Source of the DNA: an uncultured Desulfovibrio sp.
GTDB lineage: Bacteria > Desulfobacterota > Desulfovibrionia > Desulfovibrionales > Desulfovibrionaceae
Assembly (NCBI GenBank): GCA_913063155.1
Contig: CAJXYU010000008.1
Span: 124,001-188,000, forward strand
Reading direction: 5' to 3'
DNA: 64,000 nt
Shown here: positions 7,609 through 35,336 of the stretch, piece after piece
How the letters are laid out: each line of letters starts with the position of its first letter
Position numbering within the stretch: the first letter of the stretch is position 1
Notes under the pieces: generated by a model
Told to the model about the DNA's origin: nothing
The model's database searches: none
What the model saw: only the letters and a program-made list of their open reading frames with translations
Made by a program: the position numbers and the translations under genes

Positions 7609-7616
7609 GTTCCCTC

Positions 7617-8603: not shown

Positions 8604-8607
8604 GTGA

Positions 8608-10810: not shown

Positions 10811-10842
10811 TGGGCGTCCTTGCAAAAAATCCGCGGCATCCC

Positions 10843-16032: not shown

Positions 16033-16034
16033 CC

Positions 16035-17186: not shown

Positions 17187-17818
17187 TGGACATCCTGATT
17201 TTCGGAGCCTCCGGGCACGCCCTTGTGGTCATCGACGCCGTCGAAAAACAAGGCACATACCGCATTTCCGGCCTGCTGGACCCCAATGTGGCCGCAGGAG
17301 AAGAACGCATGGGATACCCCGTGCTGGGCAAAGACGAAGACTTACCCGCCGTCATGCGCACCACCGGCGCACAGGGCGCCATCGTGGCATTGGGCGACAA
17401 CAGACTGCGCAAAAGGGTGGCAGAGAACGCCGCAGCGCGCTGCCCCGACCTCGTTTTCGTCACGGTCATCCATCCAGCCGCGGTAATCGGCCGAACCGCC
17501 GGCATCGGTCCCGGCACCCTGGTCATGCCAGGAGCAGTCATCAATGCAGGGGCCCGGGTCGGCATGCACGCCATCGTCAATTCCCAGGCGGTCGTGGAAC
17601 ACGAATGCAGACTGAACGACTATTGTCACATCGCGCCCGGTGCGGTGCTGGGTGGCAACGTCACAGTGGGCGCCGGCGCCCTTGTGGGACTGGGCGCACG
17701 AGTACTCCCCGGCCTGCGAATCGGGGCATCGGCAGTGCTCGGCGCAGGGGGCATGGCGATATGCGGCATTCCGGACAACGACACCTGGACCGGCGTCCCG
17801 GCCAGGGCAAAAGGATAA
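17183..17818 (+). CDS. legH: Sugar N-acetyltransferase, NeuD/LegH type
   Basis: Acetylates the 4-amino group to give the GDP-2,4-diacetamido-6-deoxy sugar. The 211-residue protein has an N-terminal Rossmann-like cap (ILIFGASGHALVVIDA) and a left-handed beta-helix of hexapeptide repeats from about residue 105. Within the helix, VVEHECRLNDYCHIAPGAV holds the catalytic histidine region. The start ATG overlaps the legC stop and follows GGGAGGCGG; an ATG 3 bp later is equally possible. Position between legC and legI fits LegH. A related NeuD-type O-acetyltransferase remains possible. Confidence 0.85.
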   Translation: MMDILIFGASGHALVVIDAVEKQGTYRISGLLDPNVAAGEERMGYPVLGKDEDLPAVMRTTGAQGAIVALGDNRLRKRVAENAAARCPDLVFVTVIHPAAVIGRTAGIGPGTLVMPGAVINAGARVGMHAIVNSQAVVEHECRLNDYCHIAPGAVLGGNVTVGAGALVGLGARVLPGLRIGASAVLGAGGMAICGIPDNDTWTGVPARAKG

Positions 17819-17827
17819 AACAAGGGT

Positions 17828-18838
17828 ATGCGCAAAGTTTTCATCATCGCCGAAGCAGGCGTGAACCATAATGGCGACATGGAGATCGCCAAGGAATTGA
17901 TCGATGTTGCAGCCGCAGCTGGCGCCGATGCGGTCAAATTCCAAACCTTCAAGGCCGAACGGCTTGTCACCGAGCAGGCACAAAAGGCGACCTATCAGAA
18001 AGCAACAACCCAGGCTTCGGAAAGCCAGCTTGAGATGCTCAAACGCCTCGAGTTGGACACGACAGCCCATGAACTGCTCATGACTCACTGCGCTCAGAAA
18101 AAAATCGCCTTCCTTTCCACCCCGTTCGATGAACAGAGCGCAGACATGCTCGTGAGCATGGGACTGGGTATCATCAAGCTCCCTTCCGGCGAAATCACCA
18201 ACCTGCCCTACCTGCGCCATGCCGGAAAGCTCGGGAAAAAAATCATCCTGTCCACGGGCATGAGTACGCTGGAGGAAGTGGGAGACGCCGTCACTGCATT
18301 GGAAAAGGCCGGAGCGCAGACAGGCGACATAACCATTCTGCACTGCAACACCCAGTACCCCACCCCCTACGAACACGCCAACCTCAGGGCCATGGGCACC
18401 CTGCAAGAGGCCTTCCCCGACTGCGAAATCGGCTTTTCCGACCACACCCCGGGCATAGAATGCCCCATTGCCGCCGCCGCACTGGGCGCAAAGGTCATCG
18501 AAAAACATTTCACTCTGGACCGCACCATGGACGGGCCCGACCACAAGGCCTCCATCGAACCGGACGAACTCAAGGCGCTGGTGCAGGGGGTCAGGAACAT
18601 AGAATCCGCCATGGGCTCCGGACGAAAGGAACCCTCGCCTTCGGAGCGGGACAACATCATGATTGCGAGAAAATTCCTGGTAGCCCTCAGGTCCATCGCG
18701 AAAGGCGAACAGCTGACGCCGGAAAACACCGGCTGCCGCAGGACCGGCAGTGGCGGCATCTCGCCCATGCGTTGGGATGAAGTGCTGGGCACCGGGGCGA
18801 TACGCGACTTCGACCAAGGAGAAGGTATCGAAATATGA
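17828..18838 (+). CDS. legI: Legionaminate synthase, LegI (NeuB type, second paralogue)
   Basis: Condenses the free 2,4-diacetamido-6-deoxymannose with PEP to legionaminic acid. The 336 residues show FIIAEAGVNHNGDMEIA, ADAVKFQTFKAE, FLSTPFDEQSAD, IKLPSGEITN, STGMSTLEEVGD, HCNTQYPTP and GFSDHTPGIE, with a C-terminal SAF domain. The HCNTQYPTP and SGEITNLPYL forms are like LegI rather than sialate synthases. It lies 9 bp after legH and overlaps legG by ATGA. It differs clearly from the neuB copy at 9764, so the two probably have different substrates. Confidence 0.9.
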   Translation: MRKVFIIAEAGVNHNGDMEIAKELIDVAAAAGADAVKFQTFKAERLVTEQAQKATYQKATTQASESQLEMLKRLELDTTAHELLMTHCAQKKIAFLSTPFDEQSADMLVSMGLGIIKLPSGEITNLPYLRHAGKLGKKIILSTGMSTLEEVGDAVTALEKAGAQTGDITILHCNTQYPTPYEHANLRAMGTLQEAFPDCEIGFSDHTPGIECPIAAAALGAKVIEKHFTLDRTMDGPDHKASIEPDELKALVQGVRNIESAMGSGRKEPSPSERDNIMIARKFLVALRSIAKGEQLTPENTGCRRTGSGGISPMRWDEVLGTGAIRDFDQGEGIEI

Positions 18839-19989
18839 AAGTCTGCGTTTTCACGGGAACCCGGGCGGAATACGGATTGCTGCGCCCTGTGATCCAGCGG
18901 CTCGACAAGGATGACGAATTGACTCTCGACATCCTTGTCAGCGGTTCCCACCTCTCTCCCCATCACGGCATGACCGTGCGGGAAATCGAAAACGACGGCT
19001 TCACCTGCCTGGAACGGGCGCCCATCAACCTGAACGACGACAGCAGGCCCGGCGTATGCAAAAGCACGGGTCAGGCTGTGGAGACCCTGGGTGCTTCCTT
19101 GGACAAGTTACGACCGGACATGCTTGTGCTGTTGGGAGACCGTTACGAAGCCATGGCCTGTGCCCTGGCCGCCTCTCTGATCGGCATTCCCGTAGCCCAC
19201 ATACACGGGGGTGAAACAACGGAAGGAGCGGTGGATGAATTTTTCCGGCACAGCATCACCAAGATGAGCCATCTCCATTTCACAGCAACGGAGACTTATC
19301 GAAAACGAGTCATACAATTGGGGGAAGCTCCGGAACGAGTCTTCAATGTGGGGGCCCTCGGCGTGGAAAACATCAGGCAAGTGACCCTGGCCCCAAAAGT
19401 CGAACTTGCCCAGCAATTGAACTTTTCGCTGGACAGGCCCTATTTGCTGGTCACCTTCCACCCGGCCACCCTGGAAAACAACACGGCGGAAGACCAGTGC
19501 AGGGCAATGCTCAATGCATTGAAAGCCACTGGCCTTGCTGTCATTTTCACCAAGGCCAACGCCGATTCTCATGGAAGAATGATAAACACCCTGGTGGATG
19601 AGTTTTCTGCGGCGGAACCATCCAAATATCTTTCGGTTACTTCTCTGGGGCTGACCCGTTATCTCAGCGCCATGGCCAATTGCACGGCAGTGGTCGGCAA
19701 CTCCTCAAGCGGCATTATCGAAGCTCCCAGTATGCGCGTGCCCACCGTCAATATCGGCATACGCCAGCAAGGACGGGTCAGCGCCGAAAGCGTCATTCAT
19801 TGCGGCACTTCCTACGACGAAATCAGTGCAGCGTTGAAACAATGCCTCAACCCGGAATTCAGACGGATGTTGACAAAGCTCGACAACCCTTATGAAAAAG
19901 AAAACACGAGCGCCCACATAGTGGCGCAGATCAAACGATACTCGGGCGGGATCATCAAGTCATTCTATGATCTGCCCACTCTATTTTGA
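18835..19989 (+). CDS. legG: Hydrolysing GDP-sugar 2-epimerase, LegG (NeuC type, second paralogue)
   Basis: Cleaves GDP and epimerises C2 to give free 2,4-diacetamido-2,4,6-trideoxymannose for LegI. The 384 residues include TGTRAEYGLLRPV, LLGDRYEAMACALAAS, HIHGGETTEGAVDE, FHPATLENNTAEDQ and NSSSGIIEAPSMRVPTVNIG, all family marks. The ATG overlaps the legI stop. The next gene, ptmE, starts 10 bp downstream. The role is assigned from family plus the complete surrounding GDP-route gene set. Confidence 0.9.
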   Translation: MKVCVFTGTRAEYGLLRPVIQRLDKDDELTLDILVSGSHLSPHHGMTVREIENDGFTCLERAPINLNDDSRPGVCKSTGQAVETLGASLDKLRPDMLVLLGDRYEAMACALAASLIGIPVAHIHGGETTEGAVDEFFRHSITKMSHLHFTATETYRKRVIQLGEAPERVFNVGALGVENIRQVTLAPKVELAQQLNFSLDRPYLLVTFHPATLENNTAEDQCRAMLNALKATGLAVIFTKANADSHGRMINTLVDEFSAAEPSKYLSVTSLGLTRYLSAMANCTAVVGNSSSGIIEAPSMRVPTVNIGIRQQGRVSAESVIHCGTSYDEISAALKQCLNPEFRRMLTKLDNPYEKENTSAHIVAQIKRYSGGIIKSFYDLPTLF

Positions 19990-19999
19990 GGAATAATAC

Positions 20000-21064
20000 A
20001 TGAAAGACTGGAATTTGGCGAAACTTCCACTCGGAGCGACGATTCAGGACGCGGCAGAATCGCTCAACACGTCCACAATGCAGATAGCCCTCATCGTCAG
20101 GGAGGACAACACGCTGGTCGGCGTCGTCACGGACGGCGACATCAGGCGCGGGCTTCTCGCCGGACGCTCGTTGGATTCCGATGTCCAAACAATCATGAGC
20201 ACATCCTTTTCCATCGGGCATGACGACGATGACGATTCCGCACTGCTGGAAAAGATGAAACGCCTCAAGCTTCGCCAACTTCCCATTCTCGATATGCAAG
20301 GCAAGCTTGTGGGGCTCAAGACCTTGTTGCAATTGGTCACTCCTCCCAAATGGGACAACTGGGTCGTTCTCATGGCCGGCGGGCTCGGCAGCCGACTCAG
20401 GCCTCTGACGGAAAATTGCCCGAAACCCCTGTTGCACATTGGAGACAAGCCCATACTGGAAACCATCATCTGCCAGTTCGTTGAGCAGGGCTTCAGCAAC
20501 TTTTATATCTCCATCAACTATATGGGTAAAATGATCCAATCCTACCTGGGCGACGGCTCGCAATTTGGAGCCAACATCAGGTACCTCGAAGAAAAGGAAA
20601 AGCTTGGTACGGGCGGAGCGCTGGGGCTGCTTCCCGACAAACCGACTAAGCCTGTTTTCGTCATGAACGGAGACCTCCTGACCAACATCGACTTCAGAAA
20701 AATGCTCGCATTCCATTCGGAGCAAAATTCCTGCGCCACCATGGCCGTCCGGACCTTCGACATGCAGGTTCCCTTCGGAGTGGTCGGTGTCGAGAACAGC
20801 ATGATCACGAACATAGAGGAAAAACCCCATTACCAGTTCTTCGTCAATGCTGGAATCTATGTTCTTTCCCCCGAAGTGGTCAGCGGTATTCCCAACAACC
20901 GATTTCTGGACATGCCGACACTATTTCAGGGACTGCTAAAGGACCAAAAAAAGACGGCCGCCTTTCCCATTCACGAATACTGGATGGACATCGGCCAGAA
21001 GCAAGATTTTGACCAAGCCAATTCCGATTATTGCTTTCACTTCGCCCCAAGGGATGAGTCCTGA
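20000..21064 (+). CDS. ptmE: CBS-domain sugar-1-phosphate guanylyltransferase, PtmE type
   Basis: Makes the GDP-linked amino sugar that feeds LegB; in Campylobacter the equivalent PtmE activates glucosamine-1-phosphate with GTP. The 354 residues carry two CBS motifs (about 8-115) fused to a nucleotidyltransferase. The transferase loop is LMAGGLGSRLRPLTENCPKP near residues 125-144, with VMNGDLLTNIDF and WMDIGQKQDF. GAGGAATAATAC precedes the ATG. The CBS plus nucleotidyltransferase fusion in a leg operon is the strongest sign that this pathway is GDP-linked. CBS domains could sense a nucleotide. Confidence 0.88.
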   Translation: MKDWNLAKLPLGATIQDAAESLNTSTMQIALIVREDNTLVGVVTDGDIRRGLLAGRSLDSDVQTIMSTSFSIGHDDDDDSALLEKMKRLKLRQLPILDMQGKLVGLKTLLQLVTPPKWDNWVVLMAGGLGSRLRPLTENCPKPLLHIGDKPILETIICQFVEQGFSNFYISINYMGKMIQSYLGDGSQFGANIRYLEEKEKLGTGGALGLLPDKPTKPVFVMNGDLLTNIDFRKMLAFHSEQNSCATMAVRTFDMQVPFGVVGVENSMITNIEEKPHYQFFVNAGIYVLSPEVVSGIPNNRFLDMPTLFQGLLKDQKKTAAFPIHEYWMDIGQKQDFDQANSDYCFHFAPRDES

Positions 21065-21066
21065 CC

Positions 21067-21981
21067 ATGAACACTCTCATCATCGGGTATGGATCCATCG
21101 GTGCGCGACACGCAAAACTCATCCAAGATTTGGGGCACGACATATCCTGCGCCACAAGCAATCCGTCCTGTCCGTTCCGGCGGTTCAACTCCATCGCTCA
21201 AGCACTTTCTGACTGGCTTCCGGAACTTGTCATCGTCTCGACCCCTACGGCGGTCCATCACGCCAGTCTGACGTCACTGGACAAGGAAGGGTACCGAGGC
21301 ACCACCCTCGTGGAAAAGCCTCTCTTCCACAAATCCGAAACGAATACGCCACTGAAAAATCGCGACACCTTTGTTGCCTACAACCTTCGTTTCCACCCCA
21401 TAATAATCCGAACTCGCGAGCTCCTCAGAGGCAAAAAAATCCTCAACGCACGCTTCCATGTCGGCCAGTACCTGCCGGACTGGCGACCGGGAACGGACTA
21501 CAGAACCAGCTACTCCGCCGACAAATGCAAAGGTGGAGGCGTACTGCGTGATCTTTCCCACGAGCTGGACATGGCCACGTGGCTTCTGGGCTCCTGGAAG
21601 CGCGTCACTGCCATCGGAGGGAGGTTCAGCGAGCTTGAAATATCTTCGGACGATACCTATTCCCTGCTTTTGGAAACCGCCCACTGCCCCTGCGTCAGCG
21701 TCAGCCTCGACTACCTGTGTCGAAAAGCCTCGCGCGGCTTCACCATAAATGCCGAGGGGCTCACAGTGCATGGCAGCTTTACCCGCGGGACTCTTGCCGT
21801 CAACGACAGGGAAGAGACCTTTACGACATACCGGGATACAACCTATGAGGCACAGTTGAGGGCGCTTCTGGAAGGTCGGACAGAAAATATGTGTACGTAT
21901 GAGCAGGGCATGGATGTGGTTACCCTGATAGCCGCAGCGGAGAAAGCTGCGCAGCAGCAAACCTGGATCGAAAAAAAATGA
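21067..21981 (+). CDS. Gfo/Idh/MocA family oxidoreductase (second paralogue)
   Basis: The 304-residue protein starts with LIIGYGSIGARHAKL, a Rossmann loop. TLVEKPLFHKSE is a somewhat relaxed form of the family EKP motif, and GGVLRDLSHELDMATWLLG holds the usual active-site histidine. Its closest family look-alike in this window is the gene at 7617; both show GS(I/V)G-R-HA and a late ELDMATWLLG/ESHWIDLML block. It lies 2 bp after ptmE and overlaps legF by ATGA. The reaction is not known; oxidation or reduction of a legionaminate variant is an inference from the operon. Confidence 0.82.
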   Translation: MNTLIIGYGSIGARHAKLIQDLGHDISCATSNPSCPFRRFNSIAQALSDWLPELVIVSTPTAVHHASLTSLDKEGYRGTTLVEKPLFHKSETNTPLKNRDTFVAYNLRFHPIIIRTRELLRGKKILNARFHVGQYLPDWRPGTDYRTSYSADKCKGGGVLRDLSHELDMATWLLGSWKRVTAIGGRFSELEISSDDTYSLLLETAHCPCVSVSLDYLCRKASRGFTINAEGLTVHGSFTRGTLAVNDREETFTTYRDTTYEAQLRALLEGRTENMCTYEQGMDVVTLIAAAEKAAQQQTWIEKK

Positions 21982-22664
21982 AGATAATCGGATTTATTTT
22001 CGCACGGGGGGGCTCCAAAGGGCTTCCCGGGAAAAACATCATGAAACTCGGGGGGATTCCCCTCGTGGCACACGCAGTGCGCGCCGCAAAGGAATCAGGG
22101 CTCATCGACCGGGTTATCCTCTCCACCGACGACGAAGAGATAGCCGAGGTGGGCAGGGAATATGGCGCCGAGGTCCCCTTCATGCGCCCCAAGGAACTTG
22201 CATCGGACAAAACTCCCGAATGGCTTGCTTGGAGGCATGCCATCAACCAGCTCGATCCTTTCGACATATTCGTGTCTCTGCCCTGCACTTCTCCACTACG
22301 ATCCGGACTCGACGTCCGAAAATGCATTGAACTTTACCGGAAAGGCGGGTGCGACATGGTCGTTACCGTCCGCGAGGCGGAACGCCATCCTTCCTTCAAC
22401 ATGGTCACCTTGAATAAACAGGGATACGCCTCTTTAGTCATGCCCCCCGAAAAATCAGTATCCAGACGGCAGGATGCAGCGGAGGTTTTCGATATGACCA
22501 CAGTGGCCTATATCAGCAGCCCTCAATTCATCCTCAATCATGACAACATATTCCAGGGCCGGGTAAAAGCCGTGGAAATCCCAAAAGAACGCGCAGTGGA
22601 CATCGACACGGAATTCGATTTTAAATTCGCAGAATTTCTGCTTACCTACAAATCAAAGAGATAA
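21978..22664 (+). CDS. legF: CMP-legionaminate cytidylyltransferase, LegF
   Basis: Activates legionaminic acid with CTP. The 228 residues have the NeuA-family loop FARGGSKGLPGKN (residues 7-19), STDDEEIAEVGREYGAE, LPCTSPLRSGLDV and a C-terminal VDIDTEFDFKFAE metal-binding segment. The ATG overlaps the stop of the Gfo/Idh gene. Its partner at 6901 has PARSGSKGVRHKN and NIDDEFEIEMAE, so the two copies are separate lineages. With legB, C, H, I, G and ptmE this completes a CMP-legionaminate route from an amino-sugar phosphate. Confidence 0.9.
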   Translation: MKIIGFIFARGGSKGLPGKNIMKLGGIPLVAHAVRAAKESGLIDRVILSTDDEEIAEVGREYGAEVPFMRPKELASDKTPEWLAWRHAINQLDPFDIFVSLPCTSPLRSGLDVRKCIELYRKGGCDMVVTVREAERHPSFNMVTLNKQGYASLVMPPEKSVSRRQDAAEVFDMTTVAYISSPQFILNHDNIFQGRVKAVEIPKERAVDIDTEFDFKFAEFLLTYKSKR

Positions 22665-22667
22665 ATT

Positions 22668-23471
22668 ATGCGCTCCATTCAAGAACTCATGAATCTTTCA
22701 GGAAAAACAGCCCTGATAACCGGAGGCGCAGGCCACATCGGCAAGGCCGTTGCTGATGCACTGGCCGAAGCAGGATGTTCCATCGCCATTGCAGACATAG
22801 ACGCAAGAAGCGCGGAAGAAGTCGCGATGGCACTCAAGGAAAAGTTCCAGATCAAAACAGCGGGATACGATGTCGACCTAGCTGAAGAATCACAGGTAAG
22901 AGAACTCCCCGAGAAAGCCGTCACGGACTTTGGCTCCTTGGACATACTGGTCAACTGTGCCGCCTTTGTCGGGACCTCCGATCTTGAAGGCTGGGTGACT
23001 CCCTTCAAGGAGCAGAGGACAGAAGCGTGGCGCGCGGCCTTCGAAGTCAACCTGACGGCATGCTTCGCCCTGATCCAATCGGCAACCCCCTTTCTGGAAA
23101 GGACGGGCCACGGCTCAATCATAAACATAGCTTCCATGTACGGCTGCACAGGCCCGGACTGGAGGCTCTACGACGACACCCAAATGGGCAACCCGGCAGC
23201 CTATGCAGCCAGCAAGGGCGGCCTCATCCAGCTAACGACGTGGCTGGCGACGACCCTGGCTCCCAATATACGGGTCAATGCCATCAGTCCTGGCGGAATC
23301 TGGCGCAATCAGCCGCAGCGATTCGTCGAACGATACGAAAAGAAAACGCCATTGGGACGCATGGGAATCGAGGAGGACATGAAAGGTGCGGCACTGTATT
23401 TCGCAAGCGACCTTTCTGCCTACGTAACGGGCCAGAACCTTCTGGTAGACGGTGGCTGGACTGCGTGGTGA
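22668..23471 (+). CDS. ptmA: Short-chain dehydrogenase/reductase, PtmA-like
   Basis: The 267-residue SDR has the cofactor loop TGGAGHIGKAVAD (residues 19-31), VNCAAFVG, IINIASMYG, the catalytic YAASKGG (Tyr-x3-Lys) and a closing LLVDGGWTAW. A PtmA-like SDR is a regular member of legionaminate operons, where its exact job is less certain than the other steps. It lies 3 bp after legF and is the last gene of the operon, convergent with the gene at 23490 (18 bp). The general SDR call is firm; the symbol rests on context. Confidence 0.72.
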   Translation: MRSIQELMNLSGKTALITGGAGHIGKAVADALAEAGCSIAIADIDARSAEEVAMALKEKFQIKTAGYDVDLAEESQVRELPEKAVTDFGSLDILVNCAAFVGTSDLEGWVTPFKEQRTEAWRAAFEVNLTACFALIQSATPFLERTGHGSIINIASMYGCTGPDWRLYDDTQMGNPAAYAASKGGLIQLTTWLATTLAPNIRVNAISPGGIWRNQPQRFVERYEKKTPLGRMGIEEDMKGAALYFASDLSAYVTGQNLLVDGGWTAW

Positions 23472-24974: not shown

Positions 24975-26216
24975 ATGAACATAGCCAGCATCATCTCGGA
25001 ATCTCTGCTCAAGGCGGGCGGATACGAAATATTCACCTACAACCTGCTGAACGCCCTTGCTCGCAAAGGGCACCAGGTAACGCTTTACATCTCAGACCGT
25101 GAAGCCCGGAAAAATGGAAATTTTTACAAGCAGGCCCCGTTCAACTATCGCCCACTGCCATGGAAAAGCATGTCCGTGTTCAAACGGTGTCCATCGCTTC
25201 TTCGTCGATGGTTCGAGCGGCAACAGAGACGGCACGGATACGATGTCTGGCAAGTCATGGGAGCTTACCCCGAAGGAGAGCTGGTTTCCAATCTGAGCGG
25301 AAAGGTTCCCCTGGTGCTGCGCACCCATGGCGACGACATTCAGGCAATGCCTGAAATCAGCTATGGCATGCGTCTCGACCCGGTGCTTGACAAAAAAATC
25401 CGGGCAGTCCTCGGCCGCATGGACCGAGTCATAGCGCTCACGGACAGCGTCACCGATGAACTGCTGGGACTCGGAGTTCCACAGGAACGCATCAAGGTCA
25501 TCCCCAACGGTATCAATGCCGACCACTTTGCCAAAGAACGCGACATCCCCTCATGCCGAGGCGGGTATGGCATCAAACCCGATGATTTCCTCATAGTCAC
25601 CGTAGGGCGCAATCACCCCAAAAAAGGCTTCGATCTCATTCCAACCGTAGCTGCGGCGCTTGTAAGGCAAGGGATGAACTTCAAATGGCTCGTAGTGGGC
25701 CAGAATTCCGAGGCGCTCAGGCCGCAACTGAAAGAAAAGCAACTTCTCGACCGGGTGCGGACTGTGCCCAGCATCACTCCGAAGGCCGAAAATGGCGTCC
25801 TCGATTTCGAGCACATGCCGCCCGAGGAACTCGTCGAAATCTACGCCATGGCTGACCTGTTCTTCTTTCCTTCGCGGATTGAAACCTTCGGTCGGGTGCT
25901 CCTGGAATCCATGGCTGCGGGTACGCCGGTCGTCACCACCGATTGTCTCGGCTGCCGCGATGTGGTCGCACACGGAAAATACGGAGTCATGGTCCCCGTA
26001 GACGACACGGATGAGATGATCCGCGCGCTTGCCACACTTACCCGAGACCGAAAGTCCCTCCAAGCCCTGCGCAAAGCAGGACTTGAACGCGCCAGGCAGT
26101 TCTCCTGGGACATCGTCGCCGACCAATACCTGGTCCTTTACTCCTCACTCAAGGAATCTCTCAAAACGGGGAAAGAGGGTGGAACATCCAGGCAGGCACA
26201 TACCATCACGGCATAA
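24975..26216 (+). CDS. Glycosyltransferase family 4
   Basis: The 413-residue GT-B protein has SESLLKAGGYEIFTYNLLNAL as acceptor loop, VLRTHGDDIQAMPE, IPNGINADHF, VGRNHPKKGFDLIP and the donor E-x7-E motif in ETFGRVLLESMAAGTPVV. It retains the features of a retaining hexosyltransferase. A short AGGTAACACC lies before the ATG. It stands alone between a divergent gene and a 222-bp AT-rich gap. It likely adds one sugar of the surface glycan; the donor is unknown. Confidence 0.87.
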   Translation: MNIASIISESLLKAGGYEIFTYNLLNALARKGHQVTLYISDREARKNGNFYKQAPFNYRPLPWKSMSVFKRCPSLLRRWFERQQRRHGYDVWQVMGAYPEGELVSNLSGKVPLVLRTHGDDIQAMPEISYGMRLDPVLDKKIRAVLGRMDRVIALTDSVTDELLGLGVPQERIKVIPNGINADHFAKERDIPSCRGGYGIKPDDFLIVTVGRNHPKKGFDLIPTVAAALVRQGMNFKWLVVGQNSEALRPQLKEKQLLDRVRTVPSITPKAENGVLDFEHMPPEELVEIYAMADLFFFPSRIETFGRVLLESMAAGTPVVTTDCLGCRDVVAHGKYGVMVPVDDTDEMIRALATLTRDRKSLQALRKAGLERARQFSWDIVADQYLVLYSSLKESLKTGKEGGTSRQAHTITA

Positions 26217-26438: not shown

Positions 26439-27908
26439 ATGGAAAAGGCACGCTCCAAGTCAAGCCCCCATCCATCTGACTCGCCAAACAACGAAAACCA
26501 TTCAGTCAAAGTCAGTATGAAAGAAATAATTCTCGTCCATTGCGTTGATACCGAGGGCCCTCTTTATGAATCATTAACCGCCACCTTCGAAAGAGTGAAG
26601 GCCACGTTCGGACTTGAGTTCAAACCCTCGAGAGAACAGTTGGCCCGCCTCAAACGAGGAGAAGACATCCCTGACCAACTCAAGGACGTGGTCATGGATT
26701 TTGTCTCCGACGAACGGCTGAGCTACAACAGCACATGGACGGAAGTCGATGCCATGCTGGACGAACTGATGTCGGAGGAATGGAGAAAAACGCATGTCGA
26801 CGACTTCGGTAACGGCTATACCTTCTCATGGTTCGTCATGGATCACGTCGGTTTTGAGACCAACCCACGCCAGCGGGCTCTGGGCTTCCATTCCATTTAC
26901 GAACATTACCTGGAAATGTTCAACCGCCACTCCCCCCGGCAGGACGCCCTTTACTGGCATTTTCATCCGGTTCCCTTTTCCCGTGCGGCCAACAGGGCCG
27001 CATGTAACTACAGCTTCACAAACCTTCATATTGAATCCATAAGCCGCCGCCTGATCGATCATCTGGATTTCCCCGCGGCTTTTCGGCCCGGGCTCCATTG
27101 CGAACGCCCGGATATCAACCTTTTTCTTGAAATGTGGATTCCTGTGGACTATGGGAATCAGGCGATCCGGGAAAGGGCTGAAGATGCTCTGCAAAAAGAC
27201 GTCTGCGACGGCAGGTTCGGAGACTGGCGTCGTGCTCCGGCCCAGTGGGGGACCTACCATCCGGACTGGTACGACTACCAAACCCCGGGGACCATGAAGC
27301 GGTACATCGCGCGCTGCCTGAACCTCGATGCCCGCGTCCGCCCCATAACGAGGGAGGAAATACGTGAAGCATTCGAACAGACCGGGGGAAATTGTCCCAC
27401 CATACTTTCGGTTACAAACCATGACCAAAAGGAAATGCGTCCCCAGATAGCCTCCTACATGGACATGATACGCGAAATACAGCGGGACTACCCGGACGTG
27501 AAGATCCGCCACGCCAATGCGGTGGACGCCATCCGTCGTGTTGAAACGCTACACGCCGAGCCCCCTGTCCATTTCGACATATCCTGGAGCGGCAACAGGC
27601 TGGATATCAAAACGGACAAACCAGTTTGGGGGCCTCAGCCATGGCTCTGCTTCAAAACACTTGACGGCCGGTACCTCCATGAGAACCTGGACCGCCAGGG
27701 ACGTACCCACTGGAGCTTTATATTCGATATCGACTCGATCCCACTCAACACTCTTGAGGCGATCGGTCTGGCGACGAACGATGATTATTTCAACACGACC
27801 GCCTGCCGGATTTCTGTCGAAAACGGCGTTCCCGGAGAAGCGTCGATACGTTTCCGCAATACTCGAAGTGAGGACAGCCAAAGCCAGCCCGAAAAGCAGG
27901 ACCGTTGA
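26439..27908 (+). CDS. Polysaccharide-deacetylase-like protein, first gene of acyl-ACP cassette
   Basis: The 489-residue protein carries an early ILVHCVDTEGP segment (about residues 31-41), the type of aspartate-bearing strand that opens NodB/CE4-like metal-dependent deacetylases. Histidine-rich parts such as WHFHPVPFSR and a late DVKIRHANAVDAIRR fit a TIM-barrel. The C-terminal 110 residues look like a beta-sandwich. An ATG at 26517 is a good alternative start, just before the conserved part; neither start has a strong ribosome site. The stop overlaps the next start (TGATG). If it deacetylates an N-acetyl sugar, the next gene could re-acylate the amine; this is inference. Confidence 0.5.
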   Translation: MEKARSKSSPHPSDSPNNENHSVKVSMKEIILVHCVDTEGPLYESLTATFERVKATFGLEFKPSREQLARLKRGEDIPDQLKDVVMDFVSDERLSYNSTWTEVDAMLDELMSEEWRKTHVDDFGNGYTFSWFVMDHVGFETNPRQRALGFHSIYEHYLEMFNRHSPRQDALYWHFHPVPFSRAANRAACNYSFTNLHIESISRRLIDHLDFPAAFRPGLHCERPDINLFLEMWIPVDYGNQAIRERAEDALQKDVCDGRFGDWRRAPAQWGTYHPDWYDYQTPGTMKRYIARCLNLDARVRPITREEIREAFEQTGGNCPTILSVTNHDQKEMRPQIASYMDMIREIQRDYPDVKIRHANAVDAIRRVETLHAEPPVHFDISWSGNRLDIKTDKPVWGPQPWLCFKTLDGRYLHENLDRQGRTHWSFIFDIDSIPLNTLEAIGLATNDDYFNTTACRISVENGVPGEASIRFRNTRSEDSQSQPEKQDR

Positions 27909-28690
27909 TGTATTCCTACAATGACATTCAAAATACCCTGACGCAGCTGGGCATAAAAAAGGGTGACACCGTCCTTGTACGCGCCGACCTGCGCTATTTG
28001 GGAACCTACGACAAGGGATTCAGGCAGCTCCCACAAGACTGGTACAACGCCCTGGCATCTGTTGTAGGGCATGCAGAGGGAACCATCGTCACCCCGACGT
28101 CGAACATCAGCTTCTGCAACACGGACAAGGTCTTCGACCCGGCCACCACTCCCAGCGAGTTGGGGGTGCTGGCGGAACACATCCGCAAACTGCCTGGAAC
28201 GATCAGAAGCTTTCACCCCTTTCTTTCATACACGGCCATTGGGAAAAACGCTGCGACCATCTGCAAGGAAGTAGCTCGGCATGGCTTTGGACCGGAAACC
28301 CCCAAAGCCCGCATGATCGACATGGGGGCCAAGCTCGTCAGTATCGGAATACCGCCTAACTACAGCTGCACCACTGTACATCATGTTGAATTCATGATGG
28401 GAGTCCCTTATCGCTATGTGAAAGAATTCATGCAGCCTGTGACGAGAGACGGCGAAATCAAAATTGAGCCGTTCTATCTCTATGTTTGGTATCGCGAATG
28501 CGAATTGAAAAAAAACCTGAACAAAAAGACTATGGGCAGCTTTACAGGTCTTCAGGAAGTCGAACTGGGAAGGGGCAAGGTGGCCGCATACAACCTCGCC
28601 GACTTTTACAAACATTGCGTAAAAATGTATTCGCAAGACATCTATTGCTGGCTGGACACCCCCCCCAAGACCCGCCCGTACAGAAAATGA
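27908..28690 (+). CDS. AAC(3)-type N-acyltransferase in a glycan locus
   Basis: The 260-residue protein matches the aminoglycoside 3-N-acetyltransferase/YokD fold. It begins with the KKGDTVLVRADLRYLG strand and has SELGVLAEHIRKLPGTIRSFHPFLSYTAIG split across residues 78-108. The RS-HP block is the family's most conserved part and includes the active-site His region. Antibiotic resistance is unlikely here: homologues in glycan loci acylate amino sugars. Coupled KAS III-like and ACP genes suggest its donor may be an acyl-ACP rather than acetyl-CoA. The start ATG overlaps the upstream stop and the stop overlaps the next start. Confidence 0.75.
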   Translation: MYSYNDIQNTLTQLGIKKGDTVLVRADLRYLGTYDKGFRQLPQDWYNALASVVGHAEGTIVTPTSNISFCNTDKVFDPATTPSELGVLAEHIRKLPGTIRSFHPFLSYTAIGKNAATICKEVARHGFGPETPKARMIDMGAKLVSIGIPPNYSCTTVHHVEFMMGVPYRYVKEFMQPVTRDGEIKIEPFYLYVWYRECELKKNLNKKTMGSFTGLQEVELGRGKVAAYNLADFYKHCVKMYSQDIYCWLDTPPKTRPYRK

Positions 28691-29310
28691 CCGCTATGAG
28701 CAAAATGCACACCAATCTCCCATTCTGGGGTAGTAGAACCTACCTTCAAAGTTCACAATTGATTGATGAATTAGGGCGGATTCTTCCCCACTTCTCGCAG
28801 GAAGAATGTCATTCACTGAATGTCAAATTCCGTTCTTTCCTCCGTTCACAGGGCGAATTTTATCTCCTCGACAAGGATCGCGTCGAGCAGGCTCATCAGG
28901 GGATATTCACCCTCAGGACGGATGGGGGCAAAATCACTCTCGGCCTCAGGGAAACCGATATTCCCGTCGCCTCCCGCATCGACGACGACGAGAAGCAGCT
29001 CATGGAACCTTGCGAAATCCTGCCCAACGAGAAAACAGGCCGCATCAACGAATACGACCCAAAACGTTTTTTCGCCGTCACCGTCGCACTGAACAAACGG
29101 CTCATACAGGAACTTTCCCCCCCGGAGAAAGGTCAGGCGTGGATTCTTGCCGCACTGGATATGGATAACCCCTTTGCTCAAGCCGACTGCAAGCCAGAAA
29201 TACAATGCAGGGTGATCAGTGTCATCGCCAACAAAATGATCAAGACGCAACTTTTGATGAACGGAGTGAAAGCCGGGAGTACGGTCTTCACAAAGGTTGA
29301 AAAGCCATGA
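28687..29310 (+). CDS. Protein of unknown function inside the acyl-ACP cassette
   Basis: The 207-residue protein starts at the ATG overlapping the stop of the acyltransferase (ATGA) and ends overlapping the KAS III-like gene the same way. I recognise no family. It has no signal peptide or membrane span. It has a helical first third, a beta-rich middle with GKITLGLRETDIPVAS, and a conserved-looking NEKTGRINEYDPKRFFAV. The strict coupling on both sides argues it works with the acyl-transfer genes, perhaps as a dehydratase, thioesterase or acyltransferase partner. That is a guess. Confidence 0.75.
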   Translation: MTAMSKMHTNLPFWGSRTYLQSSQLIDELGRILPHFSQEECHSLNVKFRSFLRSQGEFYLLDKDRVEQAHQGIFTLRTDGGKITLGLRETDIPVASRIDDDEKQLMEPCEILPNEKTGRINEYDPKRFFAVTVALNKRLIQELSPPEKGQAWILAALDMDNPFAQADCKPEIQCRVISVIANKMIKTQLLMNGVKAGSTVFTKVEKP

Positions 29311-30227
29311 TTGGAATCACTGACATAGGACTCTATCTGCCCGCTGAAAGAATAGATACGGCGAGCCTCAAAAGCAGATTCGACGTCGATGACGCGTTTA
29401 TTCAGCGCAAGACGGGATTTTCCTCTCTGGCGCGAAAGAATGCGGATGAAAGCGTAGTCGACATGTGTGCCGGTGCTTTCGCGGATCTGGAGAAAAGCCA
29501 CTCTGCCGATATTGATAATATTGATGTCGTTTGCGTTTGCACACAAAATGGAGACAAGGCCCTTCCCCAAGCCAGTGCAATGCTGCAGGAACGACTCGGC
29601 CTTTCCGAGAGTTGCGCCAGTTTCGACATCGCTTTGGGCTGTTCGGGATACGTATATTCCCTGACTCTTGTTGAAGCCTTCATGGAGCGTAACGGCTTGA
29701 CGTCAGGTCTCGTCTTTACCTGTGACCCATACTCACCGCACTTAGAAGCCAAAGACAAAAATACACAACTTTTGTTCGGAGATGGCGCGACAGTCACCTA
29801 TCTCTCCAAAGCTCCCGTATTCACCATGCACAAGGCGACTTTTGCAACCATCGGAAGAAAAGCTGACGCACTCACAAAAGAACCTTGCGGCACGATTCAT
29901 ATGGACGGCAGGGAAATCTTCAACTTCTCCATGCGCAATGTTCCGAAAACATTAAAACAGTGCCTCAAGGCCAACAACTGCTCCTTTGAAGACGTTGACC
30001 TGTTCATTCTGCATCAGGGAAGCAGGTTCATGCTGGATAGCTTGCGGAAATCTCTGTCCATAAAACCTGAAGCACTGCCTTTTTTTGCAGGAAGCTACGG
30101 AAACACCGTCTCTTCGAGCATTCCCTTCGGACTCAAACAGTACCTTGACGGCGACCAAGACACCATTGCACTCTGCGGGTTTGGAGTGGGCCTCAGTATC
30201 GCCTCAGTAATTATCAGGAGAACATGA
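29307..30227 (+). CDS. 3-oxoacyl-ACP synthase III-like enzyme
   Basis: The 306-residue thiolase-fold protein keeps the full KAS III triad: Cys112 in DIALGCSGYVYSL, His236 in FILHQGS, and Asn266 in GSYGNTVSSS. The FabH loop GFGVGLSIASVII closes the chain. FabH proteins start fatty-acid chains by joining acyl-CoA to malonyl-ACP. Related stand-alone copies move an acyl group between ACP and another acceptor. Here it sits between an unknown gene and an ACP gene, both with ATGA overlaps, in a surface-glycan cassette rather than a fab cluster. A dedicated short acyl-ACP supply is the likely use. Confidence 0.85.
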   Translation: MIGITDIGLYLPAERIDTASLKSRFDVDDAFIQRKTGFSSLARKNADESVVDMCAGAFADLEKSHSADIDNIDVVCVCTQNGDKALPQASAMLQERLGLSESCASFDIALGCSGYVYSLTLVEAFMERNGLTSGLVFTCDPYSPHLEAKDKNTQLLFGDGATVTYLSKAPVFTMHKATFATIGRKADALTKEPCGTIHMDGREIFNFSMRNVPKTLKQCLKANNCSFEDVDLFILHQGSRFMLDSLRKSLSIKPEALPFFAGSYGNTVSSSIPFGLKQYLDGDQDTIALCGFGVGLSIASVIIRRT

Positions 30228-30475
30228 CCATGGTAGATTATCGAAAAGAAATATTTGAAGTTTTGGAAGAAATGGAAGCCGAGGGACTCGATGTGCAAGC
30301 TCTCGATGAGAACAAAAGCCTGTTGGAACAAGGCCTTGATTCTCTTGATATGATGGATCTCTATTTCAAACTCGAAGAGCGATTCAACAAGAAAATCAAA
30401 TTCGATGACAACGCTACACAGCATGCTCAGTGGTCGACTATCACCGATATTGCTGAGGGGCTCAGCAAGCTGTAG
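30224..30475 (+). CDS. Acyl carrier protein, specialised
   Basis: The 83-residue acidic four-helix protein has the phosphopantetheine serine at residue 40 in the QGLDSLDMMDLYFKLE motif. The start ATG overlaps the stop of the KAS III-like gene; a second ATG lies 6 bp downstream. It is not beside fab genes, so it is probably a pathway-specific carrier for the acyl group used in the cassette. A bidirectional terminator at 30584 ends the unit. The ACP call is firm; the cargo is unknown. Confidence 0.9.
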   Translation: MTMVDYRKEIFEVLEEMEAEGLDVQALDENKSLLEQGLDSLDMMDLYFKLEERFNKKIKFDDNATQHAQWSTITDIAEGLSKL

Positions 30476-30583: not shown

Positions 30584-30622
30584 GAAAACGCCCGGCGGAC
30601 CATCAGGCCGCCGGGCGTTTTC
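30584..30622. terminator. GC-rich bidirectional terminator closing the island
   Basis: A 15-bp stem (30584-30598 with 30608-30622) has GAAAA/TTTTC ends around a CGCCCGGCGG core and a 9-nt loop. It can terminate both the ACP cassette and the convergent sensor kinase. Its arms are identical to those at 2600-2636. Confidence 0.85.
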
Positions 30623-30654: not shown

Positions 30655-33600
30655 CTATTCATAAATGACTTGGACTTTATCCAGATAACGATAAACGTCA
30701 GCCAAGCACAAACGCAGGCTCGACTCGTCCTTGGCGTCGGCGAGAAGTTCAATCTCCTTGCACAGGCGGCCGAGCCCCTTGAGCCCGAAGCCGTAGGCTG
30801 CGCCGCCCACCTTGTGGCCGAGTCGCCGCACCACCGGGAAATCGAGCTGTATGAGTGCATCCTCCATGTCCTTGCAATCGTCCCGGGTATGCTCGATAAA
30901 CGGCCCTATGAGCTCTCGGAAAGTTTCGTTGACCTTTTCCTGTGGCCGGGCGTCGGCCGTCAAGGCGTCCCCTCCGGCATGCTTGGCCAGGGCGTCCAGC
31001 AGAGTCATCTTCTTGACCGGCTTGACCAGGTAATCGTCGCACCCAACCCGGCGACAACGCTCGCGATGCTCGGCAAAGGAGTGGGCAGTCAGGGCGATAA
31101 TGGGCGTATGCTTCCTCCCGACCTCCTTTTCCATGGCCCGCATGGCCTCGGTGGCCGCATAACCGTCCAGCACCGGCATTTCCATGTCCATAAGCACAAT
31201 GTCGTATTCGTTTTCCCTGAACAGATTCACCGCCTGTTCGCCATCTTCGGACATGTCCAGCTTCACTGGGGAATTCATGAGGTAAAGCCTGACGATCTCA
31301 CGGTTGGATGGATTGTCTTCGGCCAGAAGAATACGTAACGGCGGCAAAAGCTTCTCCAAATGATGGGCATTTGCCGCTCCTGTGATATTGCCTTCGCCGG
31401 TAGCCTCGAACACGGCCCGAATCAACTCCCTGCGCTTCAGGGGTTTCTGGCAGCAGCTGTTGATACCCAGCTGCGGGAACATATCCTGGCAATCCACATA
31501 CCCCTGCGTGAGCATGACTATGGGGGTCATCATCCCCTCGAATTCGGCACGAATTCTCTTGGCAAGGCTCAAACCGTCCATACCGGCCATCAGTTGATCG
31601 ATGAACAACAGGGAATAGGCGTCCAAACCGTGCTGGCGCAACAGTTCCAGAGCCGTCTCGCCGTCCCTGGCCCCATCAGCCTTTGCCCCCCATGCGGCCA
31701 GGCATTCGGAAAGCACATTGCGGCTGCTGTTATTGTCGTCCACCACCAGCACCCTGCTGCCGGAAAGCTCGGGCGCAGGCTGCGACTTGGAGTCGGATGC
31801 CTTGGGCATGACAGCCGTGAAGTGGAAATCCGCCCCTTTGCCGGGCTCGCTTTCCACCCAGATACGGCCGCCCATGAGCTTGACCAGCTGGCGACAAATG
31901 GCCAGCCCCAAACCGGTTCCGCCATAACGGCGGGTGGTGGAGCTGTCGGCCTGCAGGAACGGATCGAACACGGCTTCGAGCTTCTTGGCGTCAATCCCAA
32001 CCCCGGTGTCGCGCACGGAGAACAACAGGGTGTCGACGCCCATGGAAGCCGGGGCAGGCTCCACGGAAAGTTGCACCTCCCCCGTTTCCGTGAACTTCAC
32101 GGCATTGGCGAGCAGGTTGAGCAGAATCTGGCGCAGACGAGTGGGATCGCCCACCACGTTTTCGGACACCCCCGGAGCCACACGGCATATGAGTTCCAGG
32201 CCCTTTGCGTGTGCCTGGGAAGCCAGGGTTGCGGCTGCGCTTTCCACCTCGTCCCGCAGGGGGAAGCGGATGTTTTCCAGCTCGATCTGGCCCGCTTCAA
32301 TCTTGGAAAAATCGAGAATGTCGTTGATAATGGCCAGGAGGGTCTCACCTGAGCTCTGCAGCAGTTCCACATAGCGCATCTGCTGGCTGGTGATCTGGGT
32401 CTCACCCAGCAGGTCGGCGGTGCCGATGATGGCATTGAGCGGCGTGCGGATCTCATGGCTCATGGTTGAAAGGAACACACTCTTGGAGGCGTTGGCCTCT
32501 TCGGCGGCCACTTTGGCCACCCGAAGCTGTTCCGAGGTGTTCTTGTGTTCCTCCACTTCGAGACGAAGGTCTTCGGTTCTACTTTCCACAAGTTCGCCCA
32601 AGGTCTTTTTCTGAGCCTCGGTGGCGCGCAGACGCAACTTGATGCCCAGCCAGATGCCCACCACGAAAACCAGTATGACCAACGATCTGAACCACCAGGT
32701 TTTCCAGAAGGGAGGCGTGATGATCACCCGGACGGAAGCGCCCTCTTCATTCCAGACACCGTCGCTGTTGGATGCGCGCACCCGGAAGGTGTACGTACCA
32801 TGGTCGAAGTTGGTGTAGGTCGCGGTCTGAACCGTGCCCGAATCGACCCACTCCTTGTCGAAACCTTCAAGCATGTACTGGAAGCGGTTCTCCGAAGGAT
32901 TGTTGTAATCCAGCGCCGCAAAGGCGAAGGCAAAGAAGCGGTCCTTGTAGGAGAGAGTGATCTCCTTTGTTTCGGTGATGTTCTCTGCCAACTCGGCAGG
33001 TTTGTTCATGACCTTGAGCCCGGTGATGACCACGGGCGGCGGTACCGTGTTCAGCTTTATCTTTTCAGGGTCGAAAACCGTGACCCCCTGGGTGCCTCCG
33101 AAAACCACTTCACCCTTCTCGGTGCGGGTGTAGCCGTTCATCCAGAATTCATTGCCCTGCAGTCCGTCCTTGACATCGAAATCGAGCACCTCGCCGGTCG
33201 CCGGGTTCATCTTGAAAATACCCTTGTAGGTGCTGGCCCAAAGCGTACCGCGTCTGTCCACCACCAATCCCTGGATGGAGTCGTTCCTGAGCCCGTCTTT
33301 GACCGTATACCGCTTGAAGGTGCCGGCGGCCACATCGAAACGGTTCAGTCCCTTGTCCGTGCCCACCCAAATGCCGCCGTCCGGAGTTTCCACTATGGGC
33401 GTGGCCCGGTCATTGGAAATGCTGTTGGGGTCGGACGGGTCGTGCTCCCAGTGCCGTGCTTTTCCCGTGGCGCGGTCAAAGAGATTCAGCCCGGCATTGG
33501 TGCCGATCCAGAAATTCCCCTTACTGTCCTCGAAGATGTTGCGGATGCGGTTGTGGCTGAGGCTTTCCGGATCGTCATCGTGATGCAGGTAACGGGTGAA

Positions 33601-35085
33601 CGTCTCGGCTTCCGGGTTGAATTTGTTCAGTCCGCGCTTGCTGGTGCCCACCCACAGGGTTCCTTCCCTGTCTTCATAGATATACCAGACATTGTCCATG
33701 CTCAGGCTGGTGTCGTCCTCGGGGTCGTGGCGGTAGACCTTGACCACCTTGGCCGTGGCCCTGTCCATGGCCACCAGGCCGGAATTCTGTGTCCCTACCC
33801 AGAGCATGCCCCTGGAGTCGCCGAACACGTAGTTGATCTTGTTGCTGGGCAGGCCGCCGTTTTCCTCGTTGAAACGGGTAATTTCGCCTGTGGAACGGTC
33901 CACCCGGTTGAGGCCGTTGTTCAGGTTGCCGACCCATAAAATATCCCCTTCGCTCCAGACAAAGGGAGCCACCGGACCGGCCAGACTGTTTACGTTCCAT
34001 GGCTCGTGCCGATAGAGGCCGAAGGACTGAACCTTGGGCGAAAGCCTGGAAGCGCCGTTGGCATAGGTCCCCACCCAAAGCACTCCGGAGAGGTCCTCGA
34101 AAATCACCCGCACTTCGTTGTTGCTCAGACTGCGGTCATCAAACGGATTGTTGCGGTAGAACTCGAAATCCCACTTGCCGGAACCGTCCTTACGCGGCTT
34201 GCGCAAGGCCAGTCCGTCTTCGGTGCCCACCCAGAAAAAATTACGGCTGTCCTTGTAGATGGCGTCCACTTCAAGGGGATCCAAAGAGGGTTCAAAGACG
34301 CCGGATTCGATGTCCATGAGATGCAGCCCGCCTTCCTCCGTCCCCACCCAAAGTTCACCGGGCCGTTCCGCAAAAAGGCTCAAAACAAGATCGTGACGGA
34401 GCCCTTTGGCCCCATTCTCGCCCGCCATGTATCGGGTGAAGCTTCCTGTGCCCGGATCGAATCTGTTCAGGCCGTGTTCGGTTCCCACCCACAGGGTTCC
34501 GGAAAGGTCCTCTGCAATGACCCGAATTTCGTTGTTGCTGATGCTGTCCGGATTACCGGGGTCATTCCTGTAGCTGGTGAAGGTCTCGGTGTCAGGATCG
34601 AACCGGTTCAGTCCGTTGAATGTGCCTACCCAGAGAGTTCCCTTGCCGTCCTCGTACAGGGCGCGCACGGAGTTGCCGGAAATGCTGCCGGGATTTGTGG
34701 GATCGTGTTTGTAGGCCTTGAATGTGCCGGTTTTCCGGTCATACCGGTTCAGTCCTCCGGTTTTGGTGCCCACCCACAGGGCGCCTTTGGAATCCTCGAG
34801 CAGCGCACGGATGTTGTTGTCGGAAAGAGAGCGGGGATCGTCGAGGATGTTCCTGAACACCACCACTTCATTGCCGTCGTAGCGGTTGAGGCCCGAATAG
34901 TTGCCGATCCAGATGAATCCCTTGGAATCCTGAATCATGCACAGCACATGGGACTGGGAAAGACCGTCCTCGGTGGTCAGCCGGTCAAAACGGAGGGTCT
35001 GGCTGACCGCATGGGCGAAACCGGCGTTCGCTATAAAGGCAAGCACCACAACCAAAGCCGCAAGGGTCCTGACAATACGTCGCAT
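30655..35085 (-). CDS. Hybrid sensor kinase with periplasmic beta-propellers, two receivers and Hpt
   Basis: The 1476-residue protein starts at an ATG after GGGAGAGAG; 48 upstream in-frame codons are rejected. Residues 1-28 are a signal sequence. About 30-740 hold more than a dozen repeats of the WVGT--GLNRFD type, which build two seven-bladed propellers. A Y_Y_Y domain follows (about 720-790), then a membrane span near 797-818 and a HisKA domain with phospho-His877 in [12 protein letters not shown]. An HATPase (about 990-1105), receiver 1 (Asp1163), receiver 2 (Asp1300) and an Hpt domain with His1424 complete it. All phosphorelay residues are present. Unlike Bacteroidetes relatives, it has no AraC output, so an outside regulator must receive the phosphate. 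The signal is unknown. Confidence 0.93.
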
Positions 35086-35336
35086 CAACTCTCTCCCGAA
35101 ACCGGAAAAAAATGCCTTACCCCCGCCTTCGTGCTTTTGTGGATCGCCCTTTCCACCATATGCATGAACACATACCACGAAAACGTACCTATTTTTAATC
35201 CTTGACCAAAGATGACCGAAAGTAAGCATAAAAGCCAGCGAAGATCTAATATATTATATTCTTGCCGCAATCGGCATATAACTTGAAGGGATTTCCAGAG
35301 CGTCAAATAGATGAACACCCCCTGGAGGTCACTGTC

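Follow-up and report, generated by a model that had tools for sequence, protein, structure and literature searches.

Genes of the fatty-acid type are already in print for flagellin glycosylation islands, and one of the closest described counterparts of the locus analysed here is the viosamine island of Pseudomonas syringae pv. tabaci 6605. This island has the gene order vioA-M-T-S-B-R-acp, and homologous genes occur in P. aeruginosa PAK. The flagellin of a vioR mutant, like that of vioA, vioB, and vioT mutants in earlier work, is without N-(3-hydroxybutyryl)-viosamine (PMC3927599). The locus in question is a block of five genes (A to E) in a 64,000-nucleotide stretch of contig CAJXYU010000008.1 from an uncultured Desulfovibrio sp.; all coordinates given for it are positions in this window. 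Like the viosamine island, whose setting is a flagellin glycan, the block has genes for an acyl carrier protein (ACP) and a ketoacyl synthase III (KAS III) beside an N-acyltransferase gene. The two differ in other respects. In the available part of the paper, VioB (213 amino acids) is not described as AAC(3)-type, whereas the transferase of the window is. The sugar of the island is dTDP-viosamine rather than a nonulosonic acid, and its seven open reading frames (ORFs), as described there, include no hydrolase and no double-hotdog protein but do include a ketoreductase, which the block of the window lacks.

Other flagellin islands, in Aeromonas (group II) and Enterobacteriaceae, carry genes for an ACP, a ketoreductase, an AMP or CoA ligase, LuxE, and LuxC. 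In Aeromonas these fatty-acid genes sit between pse genes, and a liposugar was suggested by the authors (PMC7874193, PMC4875605). Unlike in the window, no AAC(3)-type enzyme is named for these islands in the available parts of the two papers. A first-pass annotation of the window had considered a private ACP and KAS III for glycan acylation to be unusual; the islands above are precedents for such a pair (PMC3927599, PMC7874193, PMC4875605). The core phasome of Campylobacter coli also includes a 3-oxoacyl-ACP synthase, PJ17_06935, which may be a phase-variable glycan-acylation gene (PMC6321876, Table 1).

A second line of comparison comes from loci with a nonulosonic-acid setting. The form of pseudaminic acid with a 5-(2,3-di-O-methylglyceroyl)amino group depends on Cj1295, a protein given as DUF2172 and putatively M28-type in PMC6321876, and it was proposed that the C5 acetamido group is cleaved (Hitchen et al., PMC3068675). 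For CA_C2195, Das et al. described spsE, aminosugar N-acetyltransferases, and acpA as neighbours, found fusions too, and weighed transacylation or deacylation as the role of DUF4910, so that a DUF4910-acetyltransferase-ACP neighbourhood is likewise already in print (PMC4000134). An acyl-ACP exchange cassette is not proposed in the parts of PMC3068675 and PMC4000134 that deal with Cj1295 and CA_C2195. The window resembles these loci in its nonulosonic-acid setting, resembling Cj1295 in the proposed change of an N-acyl group and CA_C2195 in the acetyltransferase and ACP neighbours. It differs in having the unrelated gene A for DUF4910, plus a KAS III loader. A further resemblance, in logic and by analogy only, is to the synthesis of Nod factors, with its NodB deacetylase, NodA N-acyltransferase, dedicated ketosynthase NodE, and dedicated ACP NodF. 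The Nod enzymes differ from those of the block in acyltransferase fold, ketosynthase class, and sugar.

The five genes lie on the plus strand in one overlapping run, as the first-pass annotation had noted, with TGATG at the A/B junction and ATGA at the other three. Gene A (26439-27908) encodes 489 amino acids, with a domain at about residues 26-374 that hints at a NodB-like fold and a beta-sandwich at about 373-464. Gene B (27908-28690) encodes a 260-residue protein of the AAC(3) fold, counted from an ATG that has a TTG three bases upstream. Gene C (28687-29310) encodes a predicted double-hotdog protein of 207 residues, counted from the ATG at 28687. Gene D (29307-30227) encodes a KAS III-like protein of 306 residues, and gene E (30224-30475) an ACP of 83. 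The G+C content declines gene by gene along the block (A 0.54, B 0.52, C 0.51, D 0.49, E 0.43) and ranges from 0.49 to 0.64 in 2-kb windows across the whole region.

We propose, with a probability of roughly 0.6, that these genes form a cassette which exchanges an N-acyl group on a nonulosonic acid, in this case most probably legionaminic acid. In this scheme A would act as a nonulosonic-acid N-deacylase; its substrate would be the sugar in finished or in CMP-activated form, and the loss of an N-acyl (acetyl) group would free an amine. D would condense a short acyl-CoA with malonyl-ACP, so that the private carrier E bears a 3-oxoacyl thioester. The acyl group would then be tailored by a ketoreductase, either housekeeping FabG or the short-chain dehydrogenase/reductase (SDR) encoded at 22668, and by C, which is proposed to act on (hydroxy)acyl-ACP. 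Finally, B, as an acyl-ACP:amino-sugar N-acyltransferase, would move the acyl group from E onto the freed amine. Each of these reactions is one that we infer, and what was observed is the gene order, the overlaps, the families of B, D, and E, the catalytic residues of D and E, a double-hotdog model of C that is of high confidence, and a co-occurrence over 16 loci. That the acceptor is a nonulosonic acid appears likely. A 3-hydroxybutyryl-like acyl group is a tentative suggestion, made because such groups are known on nonulosonic acids (PMC3210612; title in the reference list of PMC12053666) and on viosamine by way of the vioS/vioR/vioB/acp island.

The AAC(3)-type call made for B at first reading was borne out by a match to PF02522 (E-value 1.9e-30; 106.6 bits against a cut-off of 25). 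Across the phylum, 16 of 395 genomes have a match to B at an E-value of 1e-3, and in four of them (the source included, one partial) identity is at least 48%. The four B proteins used for the profile described below read VPYRY-x-KEF at a site where AAC(3) proteins from three ACP-less loci (L047, L049, and L050) read VPYL-x-x-PY. It is quite probable that B uses acyl-ACP. A plasmid search with B returned 3,273 records, all below 60% identity, and the 20 matches listed are annotated as AAC(3) family; the same search gave no match with gene A and none with a relative of C.

Protein D belongs to KAS III by PF08541 and PF08545, and its Cys112, His236, and Asn266 are intact, as the first-pass annotation had stated; so is Ser40 of E, which lies within EQGLDSLDMMD in a match to PF00550 (32.3 bits against a cut-off of 20.8). 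D falls below the FabH cut-offs (NF006829, 193 against 249; TIGR00747, 167 against 292). The source genome (4.3 Mb) has two KAS III matches and four PP-binding matches, and its other KAS III passes both FabH models (408 and 397, respectively). This second gene stands in the order plsX-like, fabH, fabG-like, acpP, fabF-like, with translations read by eye. Since a separate housekeeping FabH and ACP pair is thus encoded elsewhere and D scores under the FabH cut-offs, D and E represent a second set.

Related loci were collected with a profile of the four B proteins in one scan of an 84,980-species collection, and 16 loci (individual loci carry L numbers) were annotated. With its two peptide patterns, the scan retained 16 of 40 stretches, which favours close relatives. 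The loci in which A to E and DUF4910 were counted also served for the iterative building of their profiles, profiles for ligases and SDRs came from members of these loci plus proteins of the window, and distances were measured between stop-to-stop frames. The related loci were not thinned, so P values are rough, and because L025, L027, L028, L029, L037, and L038 are cut short by contig ends, absences in them are weaker. The 16 loci come from Desulfarculus, Desulfospira, Desulfovibrionales, and other deltaproteobacterial bins, as well as from Rhodospirillales, magnetospirilla, a Pelagibacteraceae bin, Thiofilum, Thalassotalea, and Woeseiaceae.

An ACP gene was found in all 16 loci, within 2 kb of B in 13 of them, as compared with four PP-binding matches over the entire source genome; the ACP of L028 is weak (E-value 0.007), yet it has a WDSL motif and abuts B. 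A possible loading enzyme is also present in 16/16. It is a KAS III in five loci (L025, L027, L032, L037, and L040), an AMP ligase within 2 kb of B in nine (L028-L031, L034-L036, L038, and L039), and LuxE in two (L026 and L033). L040 was counted under KAS III and also holds an AMP ligase 5.2 kb from B. C occurs in 12/16 loci, a linked SDR in 5/16, and NeuB or NeuC in 12/16. All five parts A to E are present in two loci (L025 and L032), and B, C, D, and E in five. The wider search agreed with the glycan setting named in the first-pass annotation, while the five-gene block itself proved rare, and in these 16 loci the homologues did not lie mainly beside secondary-metabolite or fatty-acid genes, the pattern named there as refuting. 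The outline given in that annotation, in which an amine is freed, an acyl-ACP built, and the acyl group transferred, fits the counts for ACP, loader, and NeuB or NeuC, as well as a hydrolase in 15/16 loci; its reactions stay at the level of proposals. Two loci carry additional genes near B. L032 (10846-12462) has an HMG-CoA-synthase-like protein and a MaoC-like dehydratase between B and C, which may make a branched acyl group. In L033 (10869-12990), LuxC (acyl-CoA reductase) comes just after B and is followed by an insertion-sequence transposase, with LuxE farther on.

The hydrolase count comprises two unrelated proteins. Homologues of A were found in 7/16 B loci and a DUF4910 hydrolase in 8/16; no locus has both, and only L035 has neither in the fetched DNA. 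The hypergeometric P for the zero overlap is 7e-4, with the relatedness of the loci ignored. In the source genome, DUF4910 (PF16254) gave no match at an E-value of 0.001. A and DUF4910 therefore seem to occupy one slot, with A standing in for DUF4910 in the window. A hydrolase of this slot and an AAC(3)-like domain are even fused in single ORFs, with DUF4910 as the partner in L026 (2-1690; the AAC(3) half is cut by the locus edge), L042 (7989-9779), and L044 (9313-11322). DUF4910 and DUF2172 occur together in proteins of L009 and L029, and Cj1295, with its DUF2172, is of this hydrolase type. In L054 (9593-10078), a B homologue adjoins DUF4910 near a contig end and its frame departs after about residue 124. 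Gene A itself is rare (2/297 genomes, the source included) and has no Pfam or NCBIfam match at an E-value of 0.1. In L082 it is found together with NeuB and without B, C, D, or E. A search of PDB sequences with the A profile gave four rows, the top one being influenza hemagglutinin (E-value 0.00085; 21 bits), which was taken as a chance match of a helical stretch. If A fills the DUF4910 slot, a deacylase role gains support that its own sequence withholds, and on balance we favour this role for A.

Gene C had been left as an unknown protein in the first-pass annotation. It still has no Pfam or NCBIfam match at an E-value of 0.1, and Pfam searches with 12 members and a search of the PDB (best E-value 0.16) gave nothing convincing by sequence, but its structure is now predicted with confidence (predicted local distance difference test, pLDDT, 91.3) as two fused hotdog domains. 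The model matches the TesB-type thioesterase 4r9z_B (Z 12.7; root-mean-square deviation (rmsd) 3.5; 176 aligned) and polyketide dehydratases from Z 11.6 downwards, beginning with 3kg8_B (3.8; 180), with FatA and TesB matches as well. C is present in all 10 loci with KAS III or a linked SDR and in two of the six others (Fisher 0.008), a distribution that links it with the chemistry of 3-oxo or 3-hydroxy acyl groups. A dehydratase-type enzyme is conceivable, though somewhat doubtful. Across the order, 3/247 genomes have C; the source is one of them, and within its genus it is the only one among the genomes searched. In L053 (9361-11538), a DegT aminotransferase, an ACP, a C homologue, and a hexapeptide transferase stand in a row, a viosamine-like arrangement with C and without B; at distances from C of about 1.5 kb and 4 kb there are a ligase and a KAS III, respectively.

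For comparison, 15 places with distant AAC(3) proteins gave 12 control loci. L016 (contig edge) and L022 (on the contig of L026) were left out, L024 lies inside L045, L045 and L055 are on one contig, and neither L053 (no B) nor L054 (broken B) is among the controls. In these loci C and A are absent (0/12 each), DUF4910 is found in two (L042 and L044), and NeuB or NeuC in one (L052). An AMP ligase is present in 4/12 (L044-L046 and L048) and KAS III in 3/12 (L046, L051, and L055). No ACP was found in the fetched DNA of four (L047, L049, L050, and L052).

The genes upstream of the block, all on the plus strand, read by sequence as a legionaminic-acid pathway, in agreement with the surface-glycan setting first assigned to the window. 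They encode a LegB-like 4,6-dehydratase (15022-16032; TIGR04180), a LegC-like aminotransferase (16029-17186; TIGR04181), a PglD-type hexapeptide transferase in the LegH position (17183-17818), a NeuB-type synthase in the LegI position (17828-18838; TIGR03569), and a NeuC-type epimerase in the LegG position (18835-19989; TIGR03568), each TIGR model being matched above its cut-off. There follow a CBS plus nucleotidyltransferase protein that is PtmE-like (20000-21064), a Gfo/Idh/MocA oxidoreductase (21067-21981), a cytidylyltransferase in the LegF position (21978-22664), an SDR that is PtmA-like or possibly a ketoreductase (22668-23471; under the cut-off of all 25 NCBIfam models listed), and a family 4 glycosyltransferase (24975-26216). 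With this LegB, LegC, LegH-position, NeuB, NeuC, PtmE-like, and cytidylyltransferase set, the island is expected to produce a legionaminic acid. Since a LegH-type transferase is present, B would not be required for ordinary N-acetylation.

A second nonulosonic-acid set lies on the minus strand (6032-13323). It comprises a PseF-like protein (6901-7608; below cut-off), a Gfo/Idh protein (7617-8807), a NeuC-type protein (8608-9858; above cut-off), a NeuB paralogue (9764-10825), a thiamine pyrophosphate (TPP) enzyme (10843-12384), a 2-hydroxyacid dehydrogenase (12385-13323), and also a methyltransferase. A TPP enzyme is likewise included in the sfm flagellin-modification operon of Shewanella (PMC3765264). 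Near the island, a 553-residue protein (2930-4591) matches an asparagine-synthase domain (31 bits against a cut-off of 21), and elsewhere in the genome two MptE-like (PF01973) proteins (G000:C2:150922 and G000:C1:939305) are candidate Maf-type nonulosonic-acid transferases. Promoter and terminator scans of the region gave no signal above shuffle level. A G+C-rich hairpin at 30585-30621, with its left arm from 30589, a 9-base loop, and flanking A and T runs, sits between gene E and a convergent gene and falls outside the terminator scan, whose loop limit was 8. The convergent gene (30655-35229, minus strand) encodes a 1524-residue protein that reads like a hybrid two-component sensor.

Several observations weigh against the proposed exchange cassette, and its weakest links are the identity of the hydrolase, gene C, the acyl group, and the ACP link. 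The first-pass annotation had called A deacetylase-like. As a CE4/NodB polysaccharide deacetylase by sequence, A was rejected, with a Pfam deacetylase match in 0/8 members and a probability of 0.6% in an hhalign comparison with 11 PF01522 proteins. The remaining deacetylase clue in A itself is a weak one, namely that its model, over the region of about 26-374, matches NodB-type structures: 3qbu (Z 7.9; rmsd 4.8; 199 aligned), 1z7a (Z 7.4; 4.1; 162), and 3s6o (Z 7.3; 5.0; 189). This model is poor (mean pLDDT 69.5), and Z below 8 may, by the caution given for the fold-comparison tool, reflect a common arrangement. The hydrolase gene lies within 2 kb of B in 9 of 15 loci and 3.5 to 9.4 kb off in the remainder, among them the DUF4910 of L039 (9.4 kb; cut by the locus end), the DUF4910 of L026 (8.3 kb; in the fusion), and the A of L033 (8.1 kb). 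DUF4910 is without the usual metallopeptidase residues (Das et al., PMC4000134), and the C. jejuni parallel is weakened by Cj1296/7 being out of frame (Table 1 of PMC3068675) and by a legend in PMC13317340. Furthermore, the block holds no ketoreductase. Of 13 C sequences long enough at the N-terminus to include the motif, 12 read R-x-Y-x-H and the window alone reads R-x-Y-x-Q (Gln21); this Gln weighs against a plain dehydratase. In four loci (L026, L033, L035, and L040) neither NeuB nor NeuC was found in the fetched DNA. Lastly, the fetched DNA includes an ACP in 8/12 controls (L042-L046, L048, L051, and L055), in five of these at a distance of about 1 kb at most, so that the ACP link is not special to the subfamily of B; rather, the controls point to a wider ACP link of the AAC(3) fold.

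The alternative that survives best, although we consider it unlikely, is that no exchange takes place and B acylates a freshly made 4-amino sugar like VioB, while A does an unrelated job. The viosamine island, as described in the available part of PMC3927599, pairs KAS III, ketoreductase, ACP, and acyltransferase with no deacylase in its seven ORFs, and the row in L053, which lacks B, pairs an aminotransferase with ACP, C, and a hexapeptide transferase. Against this, the window already has the PglD-type transferase for the 4-amino step, and one or the other of two unrelated hydrolases accompanies B in 15/16 loci, with hydrolase and AAC(3)-like domains fused in three ORFs. A somewhat less probable alternative is that the acceptor is not legionaminic acid but an O-antigen unit or a different surface sugar, the link of the cassette with nonulosonic-acid genes coming only from a shared island. 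The four loci lacking NeuB and NeuC in the fetched DNA would fit, as does the reading of DUF4910 loci as general modified-carbohydrate loci in the available part of Das et al. (PMC4000134). The frequency of NeuB or NeuC in B loci (12/16) against controls (1/12) speaks for a nonulosonic acid, however, and A occurs with NeuB even where B is absent (L082).

Enzymes of the CerJ/ChlB3 type serve as acyl shuttles, and D might move an acyl group between carrier and acceptor in the same manner instead of condensing it. This is improbable: although its scores under the FabH cut-offs would be in keeping with such a role, D and five orthologues from B loci keep the Cys-His-Asn triad, and the replacement of D by an AMP ligase or LuxE in 11 other loci fits an acyl-thioester source. 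Finally, the PF02522 match notwithstanding, B as an aminoglycoside resistance acetyltransferase can be dismissed as extremely improbable, since it is below the cut-offs of all five NCBIfam AAC(3) models matched (93.6 against 270 for the general one, NF033082), on which ground a resistance gene was ruled out, and overlaps in one run with ACP and KAS III genes in a sugar locus.

With the exchange cassette as the preferred reading, a broader and much more speculative one, which we hold to be unlikely as a whole, is that N-acyl exchange by acyl-ACP on nonulosonic acids is modular, with two unrelated hydrolases (the A family and DUF4910) and three unrelated loaders (KAS III, AMP ligase, and LuxE) interchangeable around an AAC(3)-fold acyltransferase and ACP. 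In this view the original task of many AAC(3) proteins would be acyl-ACP:amino-sugar transfer rather than drug acetylation, and the resistance enzymes would have been drawn from among them. In a literature search with most subscription journals outside its reach, and in partial texts, no description was found of a modular exchange cassette, of the A family in the place of DUF4910, of the three loaders, or of a double-hotdog partner. Nonulosonic acids on cell surfaces bear many different N-acyl groups, and in 2010 the genes behind pseudaminic acid variants were called uncharacterised (PMC3068675). The pattern seen here names candidate enzymes for the removal, synthesis, and transfer of nonulosonic-acid N-acyl groups, and it offers a possible role for the so far uncharacterised families of genes A and C. 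It also suggests that 'aminoglycoside acetyltransferase' annotations in sugar loci mark ACP-dependent sugar acyltransferases.

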